Origin: a virus | Length of the DNA: 29,240 nucleotides | IMG/VR virus record: IMGVR_UViG_3300010938_000115 | Coordinates: 1 to 29,240 of that record | Reading direction: 5' to 3' (one strand) | Shown here: positions 1,598 through 23,394 of the stretch, in pieces | Position numbering within the stretch: position 1 is the stretch's first letter | Layout: each line of letters opens with the position of its first letter | Made by a program: the position numbers and the translations under genes | The notes under the pieces: model-generated | Databases searched by the model: none | What the model saw: only the letters and a program-made list of their open reading frames with translations | Told to the model about the DNA's origin: nothing

Positions 1598-2833
1598 TTA
1601 AAAAGGAAACGACACTATTCCTTGAACTGCCTTCATACCACTTGCTGTAAATCCTCCAAAAGCGTTAGCGGCAAATGTTGTTGCGTCTATCCCAAATTTT
1701 AGTAAGCCATCTGTTATTTGGACTCCACATACTCCTGATGTAGCTTTCCACACTGAATTATCAAGAACACCTAAGCCAGATTGATAATAGAAAGGTGTTG
1801 ACCCGAATGTTGCAGGAATAAAAGGTTGAGTGCAGTTGAATGTAGAGGAATTACTTGTTCCAGTAAAATTATATAAAAAGATATAAGTCATTCTTCCTAT
1901 TGTTGTAAAATAAAGAGTCGCTGTTGATGTTGTAAATCCAGTAATAGTAGATGTAAAAGAGAACAAAGAAGGAAAACCCATTGGGCTTGATTGATGTGAA
2001 TAGTAATTATTTGTTATAGCACTATTTGCTACAACATAATCATTGTTAGACGCTAATGTAAGTAATGTGTCAGCTATATTGGTGATTGTTCCATATTTTA
2101 CAGTTGAGCTTTGAGTAAATTTTACTTTATCTCCTTTTTTATATTTGTTGCCCGCACCAGATGGAACATTTATTGTATTAGATGAAGCATAAGTCCAAGT
2201 TTCATTAGCGTCAATCCAGCCGTCTACACTTCCTTTGAATAGAGGAGAAACAAGTGTTTTGTTGGATACTTCCTGTGTTGCTGACAACAAAGCCACTGTA
2301 TCATCTGCTACATTTGGTACTGTATGACCATTAGTTGTATTTGACCCTGCTTTTATTTTAGTTGTAGTTGTGGTATTGCCAACTGTTAAAACATCAGAAC
2401 TATCAATTTTAGCAACATCTCTTGCCGTCCCAGTGCTGTCTTTTTGAGTAATAGCCTGATTGTTATCAAGTCCTTGAACTTTTGCGTGAGTGCCGTCTGT
2501 ATTATGTTGAGTTTTATAACTATCAAGCAAATCATTCCAATGTTTTGCGGTAAAAAGAATTTCTACCACTGCCCCAGCCGAGTGAGCCTGTGCTGTTCCT
2601 TCTACTCCTCTGGTGCAATTAATAACATTTGAACCAGAAAGTGTGCCAACAATCACTTCTTTTTTGCTTGGTGTTTTTGTGCCGTTAGCATCTACTCTGT
2701 CAATTGTAAAAACATAAGTTTCACCGTCTGTCAAACCTGATGATGAGGTTAAAGTAAAAGAGGTAGTTGCTCCATCAGGTATCGATGATGCCAGTGTTCC
2801 TGTCCAAACCTCTTTTGCTCTATATAGTCCCAT
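1598..2833 (-). CDS. Tail fibre or minor tail structural protein
   Basis: The protein has 411 residues when started at the ATG at 2833. An upstream TTG at 2902 would extend it by 23 residues into the preceding gene, but the ATG has the TATATG context seen at many other starts here and leaves a 17-nt gap. Composition is Thr/Ser/Gly/Asn-rich and beta-prone, with TAKHWNDLLDSYKTQHNTDGTHAK in two parts as a linker and a KNKT-like stretch SNKTLVSPLF. Such segments are typical of phage fibre and baseplate proteins. The C-terminal 120 residues are aromatic-rich and hydrophobic, plausibly a receptor-binding tip. It lies between the tail-tube protein and the C39 peptidase. The fibre role is inferred from composition and position. 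Confidence 0.62.
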   Translation of the reverse strand: MGLYRAKEVWTGTLASSIPDGATTSFTLTSSSGLTDGETYVFTIDRVDANGTKTPSKKEVIVGTLSGSNVINCTRGVEGTAQAHSAGAVVEILFTAKHWNDLLDSYKTQHNTDGTHAKVQGLDNNQAITQKDSTGTARDVAKIDSSDVLTVGNTTTTTKIKAGSNTTNGHTVPNVADDTVALLSATQEVSNKTLVSPLFKGSVDGWIDANETWTYASSNTINVPSGAGNKYKKGDKVKFTQSSTVKYGTITNIADTLLTLASNNDYVVANSAITNNYYSHQSSPMGFPSLFSFTSTITGFTTSTATLYFTTIGRMTYIFLYNFTGTSNSSTFNCTQPFIPATFGSTPFYYQSGLGVLDNSVWKATSGVCGVQITDGLLKFGIDATTFAANAFGGFTASGMKAVQGIVSFPF

Positions 2834-2850
2834 ATAAGTTTGATTAACTT

Positions 2851-4830
2851 TTAATTGATTTTCCAGCTTGATGGACTGCGTTTTAACATCGCAAATCCCC
2901 AAGCCTCCAAACCTAATAACTCAAAAACAGTATTTGCCGTTGTTGAATAAATTTTAATCTGTAAAGCATATAACTTCTTATTGACTTTTAGATATTTTTT
3001 AATAACATCTGCCACAAAAACAGAGGGAGTATCGTTGGTATCGGAGAAAAGCATATCTGAAAAAAAGTCATCCCCCCAACCAGATGTGCCTAAAGTTGAT
3101 AAGATGGTGGCTGTAGCAAGCGTTGATATCTGTCCGTCTTTAGTAACCCCAACTACCTCAATCGTTGCCCCTCCTCTAAAAGAACCTAACTCTGCTATAA
3201 CCTCCTTTATTTTAGCAATAACTCTATAGTCTTTGTCAATAGGAATAAGAGGTGAGGTGTAAAGTTGGTAAAAATAACTGCCAAAATCAGAGGTATAACT
3301 TTCTGATAACTCAACCAGTTTATTTCCCGTTGGTGGAACTATCAAAAAGTGAGTAACTCCGCTACTATCAGTATATTCAAAAAAGTCCTTTGCTCCAAAA
3401 TCCCAATACCAAGTCCAGTTGTTTCGCTCCATATCAAAAATAGCAATCTTATACTCATTTGCACCAGAGGGAATTGAAAAATATATCCGTGGTGGGTTGT
3501 AATAACTAACGATATTTTCAACATATTGAGAGGGAATATCCTCATATTGATTTCTAATAGGTGCGGTCATATCATCATTTGATAAAACATTAAACATCTG
3601 TTGCTTGTTTCTTAAAGCAAAAATTCCTTTTTTATTAGCAAAGAAAATATTATCTAATACTTTAACCACTGATTTTGCCCCATCTGCCCCAGCCGCCCCA
3701 ACCAGTTTATATGCCGCAGGAACAACGGCTGTCTCGTTTCCTATGGTAACTGTGGTTAAATCAACTTGAAAAATCGTCCCATTTCCGTCAGCCGACTTAC
3801 ATAAAACGGTAATAATCGGGTCTCCTTTTCCTGTCCTGTAATGAGTAACTGCAACTGGCTTATTTTTTCCTCCTAACTCCAAATCAATCCACACTCCACC
3901 ATAAAAAGGTGAGAAGGCGGGATTAGTAAAGTATTGACCTGTGCCTGTGGCATATACCCGATACTCGTTATCAGGGTCACCTGTCCCCCAAAGTCTGTTT
4001 TGAGAGATTTCCAAAGAACCTAATTTTGGTCCGCCAGTTGTATTATCATCTGGCGTCTCAACATAGATATTGGCAGGATAGGTGACATTGCCATAGTCAT
4101 TAAAAGTGGTAGTTGTAGTTTCTGCGATTAAAACCTCTTCTCCATCAAACTCTCCCCAGTATATTTGATAACCATCTGCCCCAGTTACAGCCGTCCAGGA
4201 TAGAGAAACATAATTTGATGTGTCCCAATTGTCTCTGTGTTTATTGGTTGTTTTATTAACAGAAGGCGAGGGATTAGTATTACCGATTTTATTTGTTGCA
4301 ACAATTCTATAATAGTTATTATACGAACCTGTAGTTAAACCTGTTAGTGATCCAGTCGGAGCTGATGAGGGATCGGATATTGCGGTATATCGTGTAAGGG
4401 TGCTTCCATCATATACTGTTAATCTTTCGGTGCTGTTTCCTATAAAAAGTTTTCCGCCTATTTGAGCAAAGTAATATTTTTTTCCTGTTGTAAAAGTAAT
4501 AGAAGTTGATATTTTCGTCCAGCTTCCTCCGTCAGTTGATTTATAGGCATAGCCATCTGATGCGATAGCGACAATTTCCCTTATTCCTCCGTTATCAAAC
4601 TCGGTTGCCCCGTCTATATTAGAAGCACCAGAAATAGCCTCTCCATAATACGCTCTTCCTGGTCTTGTTTTCCATATCCCATCTTGAACTTGATAAAGAT
4701 TTCTAATATCAGGTGAAAAAATAGGTTTTAGGCGTCCAGGATTAATAAGGGTATTTGAACCACCTCTAAAACTGTCAATTTTAATTGACCAAGTCTTTAA
4801 GTTTGCTTGTTGTTCTCTTGGAACTATCAT
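2851..4830 (-). CDS. Tail tubular/nozzle-like protein (T7 gp12-type role) with Fn3-like insert
   Basis: This 659-residue beta-rich protein overlaps the upstream adaptor gene as ATGA, a tight pairing like the tail tubular A/B pair of T7-like podoviruses. The N-terminus has FRGGSNTLINPGRLKPIFSP and repeated short blades ending in phrases such as DGYAYKSTDGG and GGKLFIGN, suggesting a beta-propeller body. Residues about 155-260 read like a fibronectin type III insert (NYYRIVATNKIGNTNPSPS, then SWTAVTGADGYQIYWG). The later part includes FDMERNNWTWYWDFG and a membrane-free beta-rich C-terminus. No catalytic motifs were seen. The nozzle or stopper assignment rests on order, size and fold impression, not on a search. 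Confidence 0.6.
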   Translation of the reverse strand: MIVPREQQANLKTWSIKIDSFRGGSNTLINPGRLKPIFSPDIRNLYQVQDGIWKTRPGRAYYGEAISGASNIDGATEFDNGGIREIVAIASDGYAYKSTDGGSWTKISTSITFTTGKKYYFAQIGGKLFIGNSTERLTVYDGSTLTRYTAISDPSSAPTGSLTGLTTGSYNNYYRIVATNKIGNTNPSPSVNKTTNKHRDNWDTSNYVSLSWTAVTGADGYQIYWGEFDGEEVLIAETTTTTFNDYGNVTYPANIYVETPDDNTTGGPKLGSLEISQNRLWGTGDPDNEYRVYATGTGQYFTNPAFSPFYGGVWIDLELGGKNKPVAVTHYRTGKGDPIITVLCKSADGNGTIFQVDLTTVTIGNETAVVPAAYKLVGAAGADGAKSVVKVLDNIFFANKKGIFALRNKQQMFNVLSNDDMTAPIRNQYEDIPSQYVENIVSYYNPPRIYFSIPSGANEYKIAIFDMERNNWTWYWDFGAKDFFEYTDSSGVTHFLIVPPTGNKLVELSESYTSDFGSYFYQLYTSPLIPIDKDYRVIAKIKEVIAELGSFRGGATIEVVGVTKDGQISTLATATILSTLGTSGWGDDFFSDMLFSDTNDTPSVFVADVIKKYLKVNKKLYALQIKIYSTTANTVFELLGLEAWGFAMLKRSPSSWKIN

Positions 4831-10980: not shown

Positions 10981-11262
10981 ATGTCTTATTTAGCGTTTCT
11001 AATATTACGCTTTACTGACATAACTACAACTTATAATTGTTTAAAAAACAATTGTTCTTCTGAACTTAATCCTTTTAATGCTTTTTTAATCAATAATTTC
11101 GGATTAAATCTATTTTCTGTTATTAATCTTTCTTTATCTTTGTTAGCACTGTTTATTTTTTACAAAACAAGAAAATACTTTATTAGTAAAGCCACTTTTT
11201 ATGGCTTTATTTTGCTAAATTTTCTTGTTGTGATATTAAATTCCTTTATATCACTCTTTTAG
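10981..11262 (+). CDS. DUF5658-like small membrane protein
   Basis: This 93-residue hydrophobic protein has about three membrane segments (roughly residues 1-12, 44-62 and 72-92). The N-terminal pattern DITTTYNCLKNN with ELNPFNAFLI matches the DxxTTxxxL...ExNPxxxxL signature I associate with DUF5658 proteins, whose function is unknown. It is on the plus strand inside the minus-strand virion arm, with its own strong promoter, and would be translated from a leaderless message. Its end overlaps the convergent gene at 11251 by 12 bp. It behaves like a moron: an autonomous gene inserted among late genes, perhaps altering the host envelope. Function is unknown. Confidence 0.68.
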   Translation: MSYLAFLILRFTDITTTYNCLKNNCSSELNPFNAFLINNFGLNLFSVINLSLSLLALFIFYKTRKYFISKATFYGFILLNFLVVILNSFISLF

Positions 11263-11656: not shown

Positions 11657-11676
11657 ATTTTTATAATTAAACTTAT

Positions 11677-11730
11677 AAAAAAAAGGCAACCTCAAACAGA
11701 CAATATACTTGCCTGCTTTTTGGTTGCCTT
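11677..11730 (-). terminator. Intrinsic-terminator-like element in the leader of the small basic gene
   Basis: On the minus strand AAGGCAACC (11730-11722) pairs with GGTTGCCTT (11691-11683), with an inner hairpin CAGGCAA/TTGTCTG, followed by eight T residues ending at 11677. The first AAGG can instead pair with an upstream CCTT (11740-11737), giving a mutually exclusive hairpin at 11727-11740, which is an attenuator-like choice. The start codon is 20 nt beyond the T-tract. Confidence 0.75.
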
Positions 11731-11755
11731 CTTAAAAAGGAAAACCTATATATTA

Positions 11756-11784
11756 AATATACGAAAATAATTTACAGTTGTCAA
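11756..11784 (-). promoter_or_regulatory. Promoter for the small basic protein operon
   Basis: TTGACA (11784-11779 on the minus strand), 17-bp spacer, TATATT (11761-11756). The -35 box shares five bases with the -35 box of the divergent promoter at 11778-11806, so the two cannot easily be occupied together. The transcript runs straight into the hairpin/T8 leader at 11677-11740. Confidence 0.7.
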
Positions 11785-11806
11785 GAGGAATTTTTTGTAG
11801 TATGCT
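11778..11806 (+). promoter_or_regulatory. Promoter for the RNase HI-like gene
   Basis: TTGTCA (11778-11783), 17-bp spacer, TATGCT (11801-11806), with the ATG 14 bases further on. It is a weaker match than the others. Its -35 box is nearly the reverse complement of, and overlaps, the minus-strand -35 box. The next bases (TATAAA) offer an alternative -10 placement. Confidence 0.5.
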
Positions 11807-11820
11807 TATAAAGTAATCAA

Positions 11821-12195
11821 ATGGAAAAAGCGATACACTGCGATGGTGGGTTAGTTGTTAATCCCTTCTTTTTTAAGGTTAGTCATCCTCGTGGAAGAGC
11901 AACGGCTAAAATTAATTTTTCTCCAACTGATAGAATAATAATTTCTCTTGATAGTGATGATAATACTAATAATGAGGCTGAACTATTTGCCTTACTTACT
12001 GCTATCATTGAGGCGTATAAAAGAGGAATAAAGACTATTTATTCTGATAGTAAACTTATGGTTGGAATTGCTATGGAAAACTATAAAGTGAAAGAAGAAA
12101 GATTAAAATTAACTGCCTCCATTATTAAAAGGCTGGTAAAAGAGTATCAGATAGAAGTTAAGTGGTGTCCTCGTGAAAAACTTTGGGCTACTTAA
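11821..12195 (+). CDS. RNase HI-like protein, C-terminally short
   Basis: This 124-residue protein carries three of the four RNase H-fold acidic positions: CDGG (Asp8), NNEAELFALL (Glu52) and YSDSKL (Asp76). It then has KWCPRE, the segment that in relatives precedes the last acidic residue. The frame stops six residues later (KLWAT end), so the final Asp/Glu helix is absent and the protein is about 10-20 residues short. RNase HI cleaves RNA in RNA-DNA hybrids; loss of the fourth acidic residue could weaken activity or leave a binding protein. It is a plus-strand gene inside the minus-strand arm with its own promoter. A perfect promoter for a non-coding RNA begins 8 nt after its stop. Confidence 0.78.
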   Translation: MEKAIHCDGGLVVNPFFFKVSHPRGRATAKINFSPTDRIIISLDSDDNTNNEAELFALLTAIIEAYKRGIKTIYSDSKLMVGIAMENYKVKEERLKLTASIIKRLVKEYQIEVKWCPREKLWAT

Positions 12196-12202
12196 AATAA
12201 TA

Positions 12203-12231
12203 TTGACAAATAATTTTTTCCATACTATAAT
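12203..12231 (+). promoter_or_regulatory. Perfect-consensus promoter driving a non-coding RNA
   Basis: TTGACA (12203-12208), exactly 17 bp, TATAAT (12226-12231). This is a full-consensus sigma70 promoter and the strongest in the window. The discriminator TTTATTAG is shared with the promoters at 5581 and 19475. No plausible open reading frame follows for about 400 bp, so the product is taken to be RNA. Confidence 0.82.
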
Positions 12232-12237
12232 TTTATT

Positions 12238-12480
12238 AGTCGTGGGGGTAATTAGGGGATAGCGACTTAAAACAAGCCCTTATAGGTGTATACTGTTCTT
12301 GCCTGGTTCTAACAGATGAAAAAGAACGCTCGTATGCCAAATCTTTGAATAAGAGAAATAGGTTTATTAAGAGTATTAAGGAAAACACTCGTGAGTTTTG
12401 ATAGTTTCGCAAGGTGTCCATCCTGCTGAAATAGAGCAGGAAGGTTTTCTGAAAAACTATCCTATTATTGTCTTTCTTTC
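12238..12480 (+). ncRNA. Putative structured non-coding RNA of about 240 nt
   Basis: The transcript starts about 7 nt after a perfect promoter and has no credible gene on either strand. Stems seen: AGTCG/CGACT (12238-12242 with 12263-12267), GTTCTT/AAGAAC (12295-12300 with 12322-12327), and a small AAAA..TTTT hairpin around 12382-12399. At the 3' end is a two-tier hairpin with outer stem GATAGTTT/AAACTATC (12400-12407 with 12454-12461) and inner stem TCCTGCT/AGCAGGA (12421-12427 with 12435-12441). A T-rich stretch (12462-12489) follows and may end the transcript. It does not look like tmRNA, RNase P RNA, a group I intron or a tRNA. The exact ends are guesses. The intergenic stretch 12196-12594 holds this RNA, the G-rich tract and nothing else I can name. 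Confidence 0.55.
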
Positions 12481-12492
12481 TTTATCCTTCTT

Positions 12493-12512
12493 GGAGGGGG
12501 GAGGGGGGGTGG
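12493..12512 (+). other. G-rich tract with G-quadruplex potential
   Basis: The plus strand reads GG-A-G6-A-G7-T-GG, 17 G in 20 bases, in an otherwise AT-rich genome. It lies between the 3' end of the putative RNA and the end of the convergent glycosyltransferase gene. It could form a quadruplex in RNA or DNA and act as a transcriptional roadblock. Confidence 0.5.
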
Positions 12513-12594
12513 CTATATCCCATCCAAATCTCTCTATTCTATTAATAAGAGTATGTATCCGAGAGAGTGATTGTCGGAAAAAAAACTATAAAAG

Positions 12595-13677
12595 TCAAGA
12601 GGATTTTATTTTCTCAAAAACTTCCTTCCATAAATGAATTTTGCCCTTTATTGTCCAGTCTTTTAATACCTCCTGTTTTATTATCTCGCCTGTTTTTAAT
12701 CTTTTTTCTTTATTTTCAATTAAATCTTCAAAACAATTTATCCAGTCTTTTACTGTTTTAGCAAAATAGCCGTTTTTTTTGTCTTTTATGATTGATAAAT
12801 ATGGTCCAACTGGGGAGGTTATGGTTGGCACTTGTGATATTCCATACTCCATAACTTTTATAGGCGACTTATAGATACTAAAATCATTCTCTTCTAAGGG
12901 AGCAACTCCAATATCCCAAAATGGAGAATATTTTTTATAAATCTCAATCCAATCATAAAAATCCACTTTTCCTTCTATGTGCTCAACGTATGGCAAACTG
13001 TCTAACTCGGTTGGCAAAAAACCAAAGATTTGAAATCTTACCTTTCCTTGATATTTTCCCAAGATATATGCCAAGGCAGAGTGAAATTCAGTAAACAGCA
13101 AATCACCAACGTGAGATGTCCCTCCTTGATAAACAATGGTAATAACATCATCCTCAATATGTTTTGCTGGTATATAAACCTCCTCATCAATTAAATTTGG
13201 TAAAACAAAGATATTTCCTTTCTCATTTATTTTTTTTAGTTCTTTTTTTAATCTGCTGTTTGTGACTGTTATAAATGGTAAATCATTTAATATAGCCTTA
13301 TAGTTTCCTTTATTTTTCATAACCTCATCATAAACAACATTATAAGGTCTAACGGTTAGAGGATTATCATCTAAGTCATAAACATACTTCATTCCAGTTT
13401 TTTTTGAAACAACCGCCATATAAGAGTAGGCGATAGGATTATGATAATAGGAAGAAAAAACAATGTCATATTCTCCAAGTTTAAGCCAGGCCTCATCTAC
13501 CTCCTGTTGTGTTGCTTTTTTATTATTTATTACTCCCTTTTGAATATCAATCTGCCAGTCTGTTATTTTTTTTAAGTTGTTTAAGGGATTAATAATTCTC
13601 CACCAGTCAACGGCAGAGGTTCTTGTTTTTTTCTCGTTTGGTATCGTGTATTTCGTCTCAATCCCTAAAATTTTCAT
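12595..13677 (-). CDS. Glycosyltransferase, GT4/GT-B type
   Basis: This 360-residue protein has GT-B architecture: an N-terminal half with YDLDDN (about 100-105), then VLPNLID (158-164), YQGGTSHVGD (183-192) opening the donor-binding half, and APLEENDFSIYKSPIKVMEYG in two parts (259-279). The last carries the conserved Glu and the K-x-MEYG motif typical of family 4/1 transferases, which transfer sugars from nucleotide donors. The start is one base after the stop of the upstream gene (TAATATG). In phages such enzymes may glycosylate virion proteins, modify DNA bases or change host surface sugars. Being inside the virion arm favours a virion or surface target, which is inference. Confidence 0.82.
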   Translation of the reverse strand: MKILGIETKYTIPNEKKTRTSAVDWWRIINPLNNLKKITDWQIDIQKGVINNKKATQQEVDEAWLKLGEYDIVFSSYYHNPIAYSYMAVVSKKTGMKYVYDLDDNPLTVRPYNVVYDEVMKNKGNYKAILNDLPFITVTNSRLKKELKKINEKGNIFVLPNLIDEEVYIPAKHIEDDVITIVYQGGTSHVGDLLFTEFHSALAYILGKYQGKVRFQIFGFLPTELDSLPYVEHIEGKVDFYDWIEIYKKYSPFWDIGVAPLEENDFSIYKSPIKVMEYGISQVPTITSPVGPYLSIIKDKKNGYFAKTVKDWINCFEDLIENKEKRLKTGEIIKQEVLKDWTIKGKIHLWKEVFEKIKSS

Positions 13678-22352: not shown

Positions 22353-22619
22353 ATGAAAAAAAATCTTTCAATAATAACAACAGAAAACATTTTTAGACTT
22401 CGTAACTATCTTCAACAAATATCATCAATAAGTTTTACTTTTTCAAAAGTTAATCAAAGATATCCTATTGATAAAATATCAGAAGAAGAAGGACAGCAAG
22501 TAATAAAAGTATATGAAAATCTTTTAAAAGACACAGAAACTGTTATAAACACTTATAAAAATTTTAATTTAAATTTAAATAACAAAAATGGAAAACAAAC
22601 AACAAACTCCACAACTTGA
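22353..22619 (+). CDS. Small hypothetical protein at the head of the replication operon
   Basis: 88 residues, predicted helical: NIFRLRNYLQQISSISFTFS and EEEGQQVIKVYENLLKDTET, with an Asn/Thr-rich end. It overlaps the initiator gene by 32 bp, so the two are probably co-translated. No motif or family is recognised. Its leader lacks an SD. Confidence 0.6.
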   Translation: MKKNLSIITTENIFRLRNYLQQISSISFTFSKVNQRYPIDKISEEEGQQVIKVYENLLKDTETVINTYKNFNLNLNNKNGKQTTNSTT

Positions 22620-23394
22620 AAACGGTTTTATAAGAATAGCTACAGGTAAAGAAGAAAACGATATTTTAATGGCTCTTATTAAAGCAGATCTTAATTCTAC
22701 TGAATATCAAATAGTCTTGCTTGTTATAAGAAAAACTTGGGGATATGGTAAAAAAGAAGATTGGATAAGCATAACTCAATTTATGAAATATACAGGAAAA
22801 GGAAGAACAACTATAATAGAAGCTTTAAACAAACTAGTACGGAAAAGCGTACTAGTACGGAAAAGCGGACGAGGGATTAGGTCTTTGTATCGCTTAAATA
22901 AAGATTTTAATACTTGGAATAAACTAGTACGGAAAACTGGACTAGTACGGAAAACCGACAAAAGTAGTACGGAAAACCGTACTCCACTAGTACGGAAAAG
23001 CGTACTTCGTACTACAAAAGATAATATTACAAAAGAAACTATTACAAAAGATAATATAAATAATGAAAAAGATGAAATCATTCAATACTTCAATCAAGTG
23101 ATGGGCAAGCGCTTCAAAACACTGCCCGAGGCTAACCTTGAATATTGGCGGTCAATTTATTCAATTGACGAGATAAAGCGGGCGATTGATTTTATTCCCA
23201 CCCACGACTTCTGGCGGGATAAAATGGACTTGACTATTCTTTTCAGGCGTAAAAATCCAAAAGGAGAACCCGTTGATTATATTGGTCAATTGCTAAACAC
23301 TAAAAAACCCACCCAGCAAGCACAGGAGGGATTGAGTTCTTTTATGAACAGAATTGAAAAATGGAGAAAATTACAAGTTGATAAAAAAGTATGA
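22588..23394 (+). CDS. RepO-like replication initiator with the origin inside its gene
   Basis: 268 residues. The N-terminal 85 residues have the phage replication protein O pattern (NGFIRIATGKEENDILMALI, then STEYQIVLLVIRKTWGYGKK and ISITQFMKYTG), a winged-helix DNA-binding domain. Residues about 82-140 are a low-complexity region translated from six iterons (LVRKS/T repeats), followed by a TKDNI/TKETI/TKDNI section from three 15-bp AT-rich repeats. A C-terminal helical domain (about 170-268) could recruit the replisome. The arrangement copies lambda O, where the initiator binds iterons in its own gene. Here the partner downstream is a PrimPol-helicase, overlapping by ATGA, rather than a helicase loader. 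Confidence 0.82.
   Translation: MENKQQTPQLENGFIRIATGKEENDILMALIKADLNSTEYQIVLLVIRKTWGYGKKEDWISITQFMKYTGKGRTTIIEALNKLVRKSVLVRKSGRGIRSLYRLNKDFNTWNKLVRKTGLVRKTDKSSTENRTPLVRKSVLRTTKDNITKETITKDNINNEKDEIIQYFNQVMGKRFKTLPEANLEYWRSIYSIDEIKRAIDFIPTHDFWRDKMDLTILFRRKNPKGEPVDYIGQLLNTKKPTQQAQEGLSSFMNRIEKWRKLQVDKKV
22833..22999 (+). repeat. Iteron array, core ACTAGTACGGAAAA, six copies
   Basis: Copies start at 22833, 22851, 22923, 22941, 22963 (AG in place of AC at the start) and 22986. Spacings are 18, 72, 18, 22 and 23 bp; the first pairs share an 18-bp period. Several copies continue into an inverted half: the fifth reads AGTACGGAAAACCGTACT, a perfect 7-bp-arm palindrome around AAAA, while copies one and six have one mismatch. 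This suits dimeric initiator binding. Confidence 0.85.
23013..23057 (+). repeat. Three tandem 15-bp AT-rich repeats (unwinding element)
   Basis: TACAAAAGATAATAT at 23013-23027 and 23043-23057 flank TACAAAAGAAACTAT at 23028-23042. The period is exactly 15 bp and A+T is about 87 percent. They lie immediately downstream of the iterons and are read in frame as TKDNI, TKETI, TKDNI. Confidence 0.85.

Follow-up and report, generated by a model that had tools for sequence, protein, structure and literature searches.

The locus

The window analysed here is a phage record from IMG/VR with a length of 29,240 bases. The major head protein is similar, at 31% identity, to that of Bacillus phages including Page and Pony. 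Inside the late module, a gap at 12196-12594 separates an RNase HI gene on the plus strand from a glycosyltransferase gene on the minus strand (12595-13677). A first-pass annotation had described this gap as about 400 bp free of genes, and the stretch indeed holds no conserved reading frame. The gene layout likewise confirms the direction proposed for the RNA encoded there, which runs opposite to the late genes and towards the glycosyltransferase gene.

Table 1. Features of the RNase H-RNA locus in the window.
Feature	Position	Strand	Evidence or remark
Left copy of 34-nt imperfect direct repeat around the RNase H-RNA cassette	11763-11796		74% identical to right copy, spacing 814
RNase HI gene, 124 aa, directly upstream of the RNA	11821-12195	+	Pfam RNase_H 1.5e-7; PHROG 531 RNase H 4.8e-6
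Sigma-70 promoter TTGACA-17-TATAAT	12203-12231	+	12/12 match, sole such site in the window
Conserved non-coding RNA, core of the element (class A)	12238-12513	+	homologues in L030 and L041/L054
Stem P1, AGTCG...CGACT, G-rich loop, at the 5' end	12238-12267	+	arms identical in window, L030 and L054
Stem P2 (12285-12291/12332-12338) around hairpin P3 (12306-12310/12323-12327)	12285-12338	+	covariation in P3
Two-tier hairpin P5	12400-12461	+	z -3.15; conserved internal loop CGNAAGNUGUC / GUUUUCUGA
G-tract GGAGGGGGGAGGGGGGGTGG, with G6AG7 at 12496-12509	12493-12512	+	pattern count, R-loop score
Downstream segment: TATAT, TCCCATCCAAATCTCTC (common to L054), imperfect stem CTCTCT/AGAGAG, AT-rich loop	12514-12567	+	alignment; stem by eye
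Right copy of 34-nt imperfect direct repeat	12577-12610		pairs with 11763-11796

The exact consensus promoter noticed earlier is present, and neither strand of the window holds another 12/12 site. By composition, such sites are expected at a mean of 0.025 per first-order Markov genome, and 5 of 200 simulated genomes contained at least one. Conservation of the RNA sets in at A12238, 7 bases past the -10 hexamer, which is where a start site is expected.

Related phages lack such a promoter. The best candidate for the RNA of locus L030 matches at only 9 of 12 positions, and a search close to the RNA of L054 found none of at least 9/12. The strong dedicated promoter is peculiar to the window phage and is not a family trait. 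Because it is specific to the window, high abundance does not characterise the family, and the "very abundant product" proposed in the first-pass annotation would at most be a trait of this one phage. Emphasis should be placed on the combination of RNase H, RNA and G-tract, not on the promoter.

The element is best explained as a movable cassette with three parts: the RNase HI gene, about 275 nt of structured RNA and, at the end, G6AG7. In L008 the matching place has no cassette, and a single GTCAAGAGG copy leads into the next gene.

A conserved non-coding RNA

The RNA was originally thought to span about 240 nt and to end at 12480. This end is too early, since conservation continues through the G-tract to 12513, and the 3' end of the RNA is the tract sequence itself. 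The first-pass annotation was right about a structured RNA, and it overlooked the two most telling features, the RNase HI gene next to the RNA and the G6AG7 just beyond 12480.

Two homologues were found. An exact search of viral contigs with the G-tract (12493-12513) led to L030, which aligns with the window from 12238 through the tract at about 70% identity (277 columns, E 8e-28 to 1e-29). A protein search with RNase H led to L041/L054, with 66% identity over 274 columns (E 2.7e-8). L054 repeats the layout of the window in a much more distant phage, with RNase H and RNA on one strand and the structural genes on the other. The class A element lies inside the late module in the window and in L054; in L030 the RNase H-RNA pair adjoins replication genes.

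RNase HI is the neighbour of the RNA in all three class A loci (window, L030 and L054). In both L030 and L054, the start of the RNA coincides with the RNase H stop codon. The RNase H proteins of L030 and the window share only 33% of their amino acids, which makes the RNA the more strongly conserved of the two, and because the RNA begins at the stop codon of so divergent an RNase H, RNA and tract travel with that gene.

A coding role was considered and rejected: in the window, L030 and L054 alike, stops interrupt each of the six frames across the aligned region, and the insertions and deletions that separate window from L030 have lengths not divisible by three. Since these break the frame, a conserved reading frame is ruled out. 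Together with homologues that carry compensatory stem changes, this supports a structured non-coding RNA. The first-pass annotation had named missing stem conservation or a conserved frame as grounds for rejecting one; the stems are kept, and no frame is shared.

Several other searches sought further members. A gapped core pattern matched at 5 places in a genome scan, in unrelated and mostly protein-coding contexts, and these were taken as chance. A viral scan with AGTTTCG...TTCTGAAAAACT returned 13 stretches: 2 are the known homologues and 11 are chance matches, by eye mostly in coding DNA. The exact G-tract occurred in 6 viral contigs, one of which is the homologue L030; the other five are GC-richer (52-67% G+C) and share nothing but the tract. 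The RNase H of L034 is 71% identical to that of L030, yet neither RNA homology nor a G-tract was found there.

The earlier impression that the RNA resembles no recognised class agrees with an Rfam search of the window, which gave no match at the gathering score to GOLLD, ROOL or any other family; the best sub-threshold match, at E 1.1, is at chance level. No meaningful DNA matches were found in annotated phages for the elements of the window, L030, L054, L003 and L061, or in plasmids for that of the window, and the few weak phage or plasmid matches cover 6-13% of the query. Among titles and opening abstracts of the literature, no description of a phage RNase H-linked G-tract RNA was found. Judged by its sequence, this is a new phage RNA family whether or not it serves as a primer; it matches nothing in Rfam at the gathering score, and it accompanies RNase H in podovirus-like phages that are uncultured.

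Structure of the RNA

The structural comparison rests on three sequences (window, L030 and L054), whose signs agree. In P3, a C-G pair has become U-A in L054, and a U-A pair has become C-G in L030. P2 shows one A-C mismatch in L054, and its G-U pairs are compatible with the plus strand only. In the window, P2 and P3 compete with an alternative fold.

The two-tier hairpin noticed earlier, P5, is present and unusually stable, none of 200 shuffles being as stable. Its outer stem pairs 12400-12407 with 12454-12461, and its inner stem pairs 12421-12427 with 12435-12441. The inner stem is retained with different letters in all three sequences. When the 23-26 nt between the conserved flanks were compared with shuffles, p was 0.0002 for the window, 0.0062 for L030 and 0.08 for L054. 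The internal loop is nearly invariant, and besides the tract, the best-conserved letters of the RNA are those of internal loops and hairpin loops.

As a whole, the 243-nt region is not unusually stable on the plus strand (z -0.38; 64 of 200 shuffles as good). On the reverse strand the fold is somewhat more stable than in shuffled sequence (z -2.0). The T-rich stretch that had been read as the end of the RNA is not a canonical terminator.

The G-tract and the exchange of its RNA

The pattern GGGGGGAGGGGG has one match in the window, and none of 100 shuffles contains any. On nearest-neighbour parameters, the tract is also the most R-loop-favourable 20-mer of the window (ddG -14.6, against -11.1 for the next). 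It ranks first in 7 of 13 loci including the window; in L054 it does not, and a tract of this kind is missing from the remaining five. Window and L030 agree in all 24 nt of CTTGGAGGGGGGAGGGGGGGTGGC, and GGGGTATGGGGGGATGATAGGGGGG stands at the same position in L054.

In four close relatives, whose RNase H genes are 89-94% identical in DNA, the space between RNase H and the next gene is filled by an unrelated element of about 400 nt. This element is strongly conserved among the four, with a mean column identity of 89%. On the minus strand the element finishes with GAGGGGGGAGGGGGAGGC (G5AAG5 in L005), close to the stop codon of RNase H, so that the G6AG5 tract of the relatives lies on the strand opposite to that of the window. 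The minus-strand promoter candidates of L003 and L005 match at 9 of 12 positions, and those of L004 at fewer than 9. The G-tract strand has a fold z of +0.47 and the plus strand one of -1.72, and 1 of 82 predicted pairs covaries. Compared with Rfam, the L003 element gave no match at the gathering score.

Structural kinship between this element and the window RNA was rejected. Among 23 sources, a covariance model of the window family (R1) recognises 3, all of them training sequences, and the best match outside training reaches 12 bits (E 2.8). The window and its close relatives have unrelated elements at one and the same place. The surrounding genes vary too: two additional genes are present in L003, the glycosyltransferase is missing from L005, and L008 has neither RNase H nor RNA.

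An RNase H match was found in 10 of the 22 records examined. The tract, with at most one mismatch, occurs in the window and five others of these ten (G001-G004 and G017), and a G-rich variant in G021 brings the count to 7 of 10; G018, G019 (a fragment) and G020 lack it. Among the 12 records without an RNase H match, the tract occurs in one, G014, where G6AG7 stands behind a third, different non-coding sequence. The records were collected with RNase H, head protein, RNA and tract as baits and, being fragmentary and in part closely related, yield counts that are descriptive and not a test. In G020, which contains L037, the only G-run is a G9 run about 300 nt upstream of the RNase H gene; it follows a stretch (L037 2380-2700) that looks tRNA-like by eye.

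What stays constant is a G-tract, an RNase H and an RNA that is variable but conserved, while orientation and place vary. Since the tract is kept and the RNA and its orientation are not, the comparison points to a self-contained cis function.

The RNase HI protein

The window protein ends in WCPREKLWAT, and all RNase H proteins considered here terminate in (A/V/S)T followed by the stop codon. In an alignment to the RNase H of Sulfolobus (ST0753), the aligned part reaches only as far as chain residue N121; we take the catalytic Asp of ST0753 to be Asp125. The window RNase HI stops before what is presumably the position of the fourth catalytic Asp. Because the proteins end ahead of this residue, RNase H activity of the phage enzymes is uncertain.

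The group of minimal RNase HI genes comprises 11821-12195 of the window, L030 300-653 and L054 1461-1832, as well as genes in L034, L037 and L065. A second minimal RNase HI is found in the early region of G004.

Possible functions

What the sequence establishes is a promoter, an RNA with covarying stems, a conserved G-tract, linkage to RNase H, and a plan that is reused with different sequence. Because the terminal G-run resembles the tract at which human mitochondrial DNA synthesis starts, the RNase H-adjoining RNA may be a primer system.

The steps of such a system, from transcription through R-loop and quadruplex formation to trimming and priming, are ones we infer. RNA polymerase would transcribe the RNA, in the window phage from its own consensus promoter. 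At the G-tract, an rG:dC hybrid together with a G-quadruplex would tether the nascent transcript to its template, forming an R-loop at which transcription would stop. Trimming of the anchored RNA by the phage RNase H could then leave a 3' end that primes DNA synthesis, with the duplex opening in AT-rich sequence past the tract. Folding of the upstream RNA might control how well the tract hybridises, in the way that folding of RNA II governs hybridisation in ColE1.

The start of replication made in this way would be an auxiliary one. A RepO-like gene (22588-23394) contains six copies of AGTACGGAAAA at 22836-22999, and its homologue in G001 contains GTCGCTTTTTT four times. The repeats are likely lambda-type iterons, and because of them the main, lambda-type origin probably lies in the RepO-like gene. 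This would leave the cassette as an auxiliary start, or as no origin at all. Of the features of an origin, the hybrid- and quadruplex-favouring sequence is present (G6AG7 is the top R-loop 20-mer of the window, 0 of 100 shuffles), and a promoter upstream of the tract is found in the window without being general (9/12 in L030). The cassette is not the only recognisable candidate for a main origin, given the six iteron-like repeats.

A transcript anchored by R-loop and G-quadruplex and trimmed by RNase H into a primer is ranked first among the explanations, because it accounts for the constant tract and RNase H, the parallels with human CSB II and Ceduovirus, and the R-loop score; the case for it falls somewhat short of an even chance. 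Against it stand the iteron-like repeats, RNase H proteins that end before the presumed fourth catalytic Asp, the tract of L054, which is not the best R-loop site there, the tract of G014 without an RNase H match, the RNase H of G018 without a tract, the lone G9 run of G020, and an RNA that as a whole is no more stable than its shuffles. In the close relatives, the poor fold of the G-tract strand, promoter candidates of 9/12 at most and a single covarying pair also count against it. Alternatively, the RNA could act in trans as a regulator, which is a serious rival though a less probable one. Its G-tract would then be a quadruplex 3' end that stops transcription and protects the end, and its conserved internal loops would act on messengers or proteins of host or phage. 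Such an RNA would be cut from the 3' part of the RNase H messenger in L030 and L054, where it follows the RNase H stop without a strong promoter, and would have its own promoter in the window phage. The concentration of conserved letters in internal and hairpin loops, as for protein or RNA binding, fits this explanation, and the lambda-type iterons make a second origin unnecessary. Left unexplained are the RNase H neighbour in 3 of 3 class A loci and the near-identical G-tract in the unrelated replacement element of close relatives. If the RNA does act in trans, it would add a quadruplex-ended regulator to the known phage RNAs.

Other explanations have a lower probability. Transcription beside a G-quadruplex could open the DNA and provoke gene exchange, for which the pilE locus of Neisseria offers a precedent. 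The turnover of genes beside the element in L003, L005 and L008 and the imperfect 34-nt repeat around the cassette would suit such a hotspot, but ordinary cassette exchange through the repeats can explain the turnover as well, no donor copies were seen, and the L030 element adjoins replication genes; the idea is improbable. The same low standing is given to local control of transcription, in which an R-loop or antisense RNA would limit RNase H, glycosyltransferase or late transcription. The window RNA does head towards the glycosyltransferase gene, and the G-rich strand of the relatives towards RNase H; however, the classes vary in orientation and in the gene faced, and in L030 the element occupies a different region. 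A plain intergenic sequence in which the promoter arose by chance would agree with the unremarkable fold of the whole region, but conservation of 66-70% in two distant phages and covarying stems make it very improbable indeed.

Comparison with known systems

The ColE1 plasmid provides one comparison for the primer explanation. Its RNA II is structured, hybridises to the template through a G-rich stretch, and is cut by RNase H. The phage RNA is alike in being structured and in having a G-rich stretch. In ColE1 the RNase H is that of the host, whereas here it is the phage's own. No counterpart of RNA I was seen in the window, where promoter-like sites on the opposite strand are weak. A role of the R-loop in ColE1 is named in the available part of PMC5333043.

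Another example is the human mitochondrial system of LSP, CSB II and RNase H1. According to the accessible text of PMC8780183, G6AG7 is the commonest human CSB II sequence, at 37%. At CSB II the transcript stops and an R-loop forms, and processing by RNase H1 is needed to obtain the primer for DNA synthesis, as the available part of PMC6317783 describes. The phage locus is alike in its promoter, predicted short transcript, G6AG7 and possible R-loop-processing RNase H. It differs in that the transcript before the tract is longer, about 255 nt compared with about 120, and is conserved as a structure. A sigma-70-type polymerase would make the phage RNA, and R-loop and priming are proposals here. 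The phage RNase H also ends before the presumed fourth catalytic Asp.

It is conceivable, though doubtful, that tailed phages carry a CSB II-type primer system, consisting of a structured transcript, G6AG7 and their own RNase H, as the bacterial-virus counterpart of that in animal mitochondria. The mitochondrial replication machinery is itself phage-derived. Were the correspondence real, it would be one of convergence, descent from the mitochondrial machinery being far less likely. The cassette would then offer a compact system for studying what G-tract, RNA folding and RNase H each contribute when a transcript becomes a primer.

Among phages, T4 provides a further comparison. The RNase H of T4 belongs to a different protein family. 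At oriF and oriG, a phage transcript serves as R-loop primer with the viral RNase H as its likely processor, and the origins have little sequence in common, so that the transcript/RNase H scheme is alike (PMC3016281, available part). Unlike the phages studied here, T4 has an AT-rich unwinding element instead of a G-tract, and a structured RNA is not described in the accessible portion of that source (PMC3016281).

The origins of lactococcal Ceduovirus phages (c2-type) fall into sequence types without similarity between groups, arranged around a non-coding transcript (PMC7150918, in its available part). Both systems have unrelated sequence types at one place in related phages; the Ceduovirus transcript is promoter-driven and non-coding. 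Ceduovirus origins lie between the early and late modules and support plasmid replication, whereas the window element lies inside the late module, and the available text of PMC7150918 mentions neither RNase H nor a G-tract.

Neighbouring features of the late module

Within the late module, the plus strand also encodes a small membrane-like protein of the DUF5658 family (PF18902) at 10981-11262. On the minus strand, 11672-11784 holds a TTGACA-17-TATATT promoter followed by a perfect terminator-like hairpin, GGCAACC...GGTTGCC-T8, ahead of the next late gene; this leader looks attenuated or antiterminated. Similar leaders precede the RNase H operon in L054 (1040-1175) and L034 (about 2820-3000), each consisting of a promoter, a GCAAGTATAAAA motif, a hairpin and a T-run that ends at the ATG. 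The GCAAGTATA of these leaders is also present in the minus-strand leader of the window.
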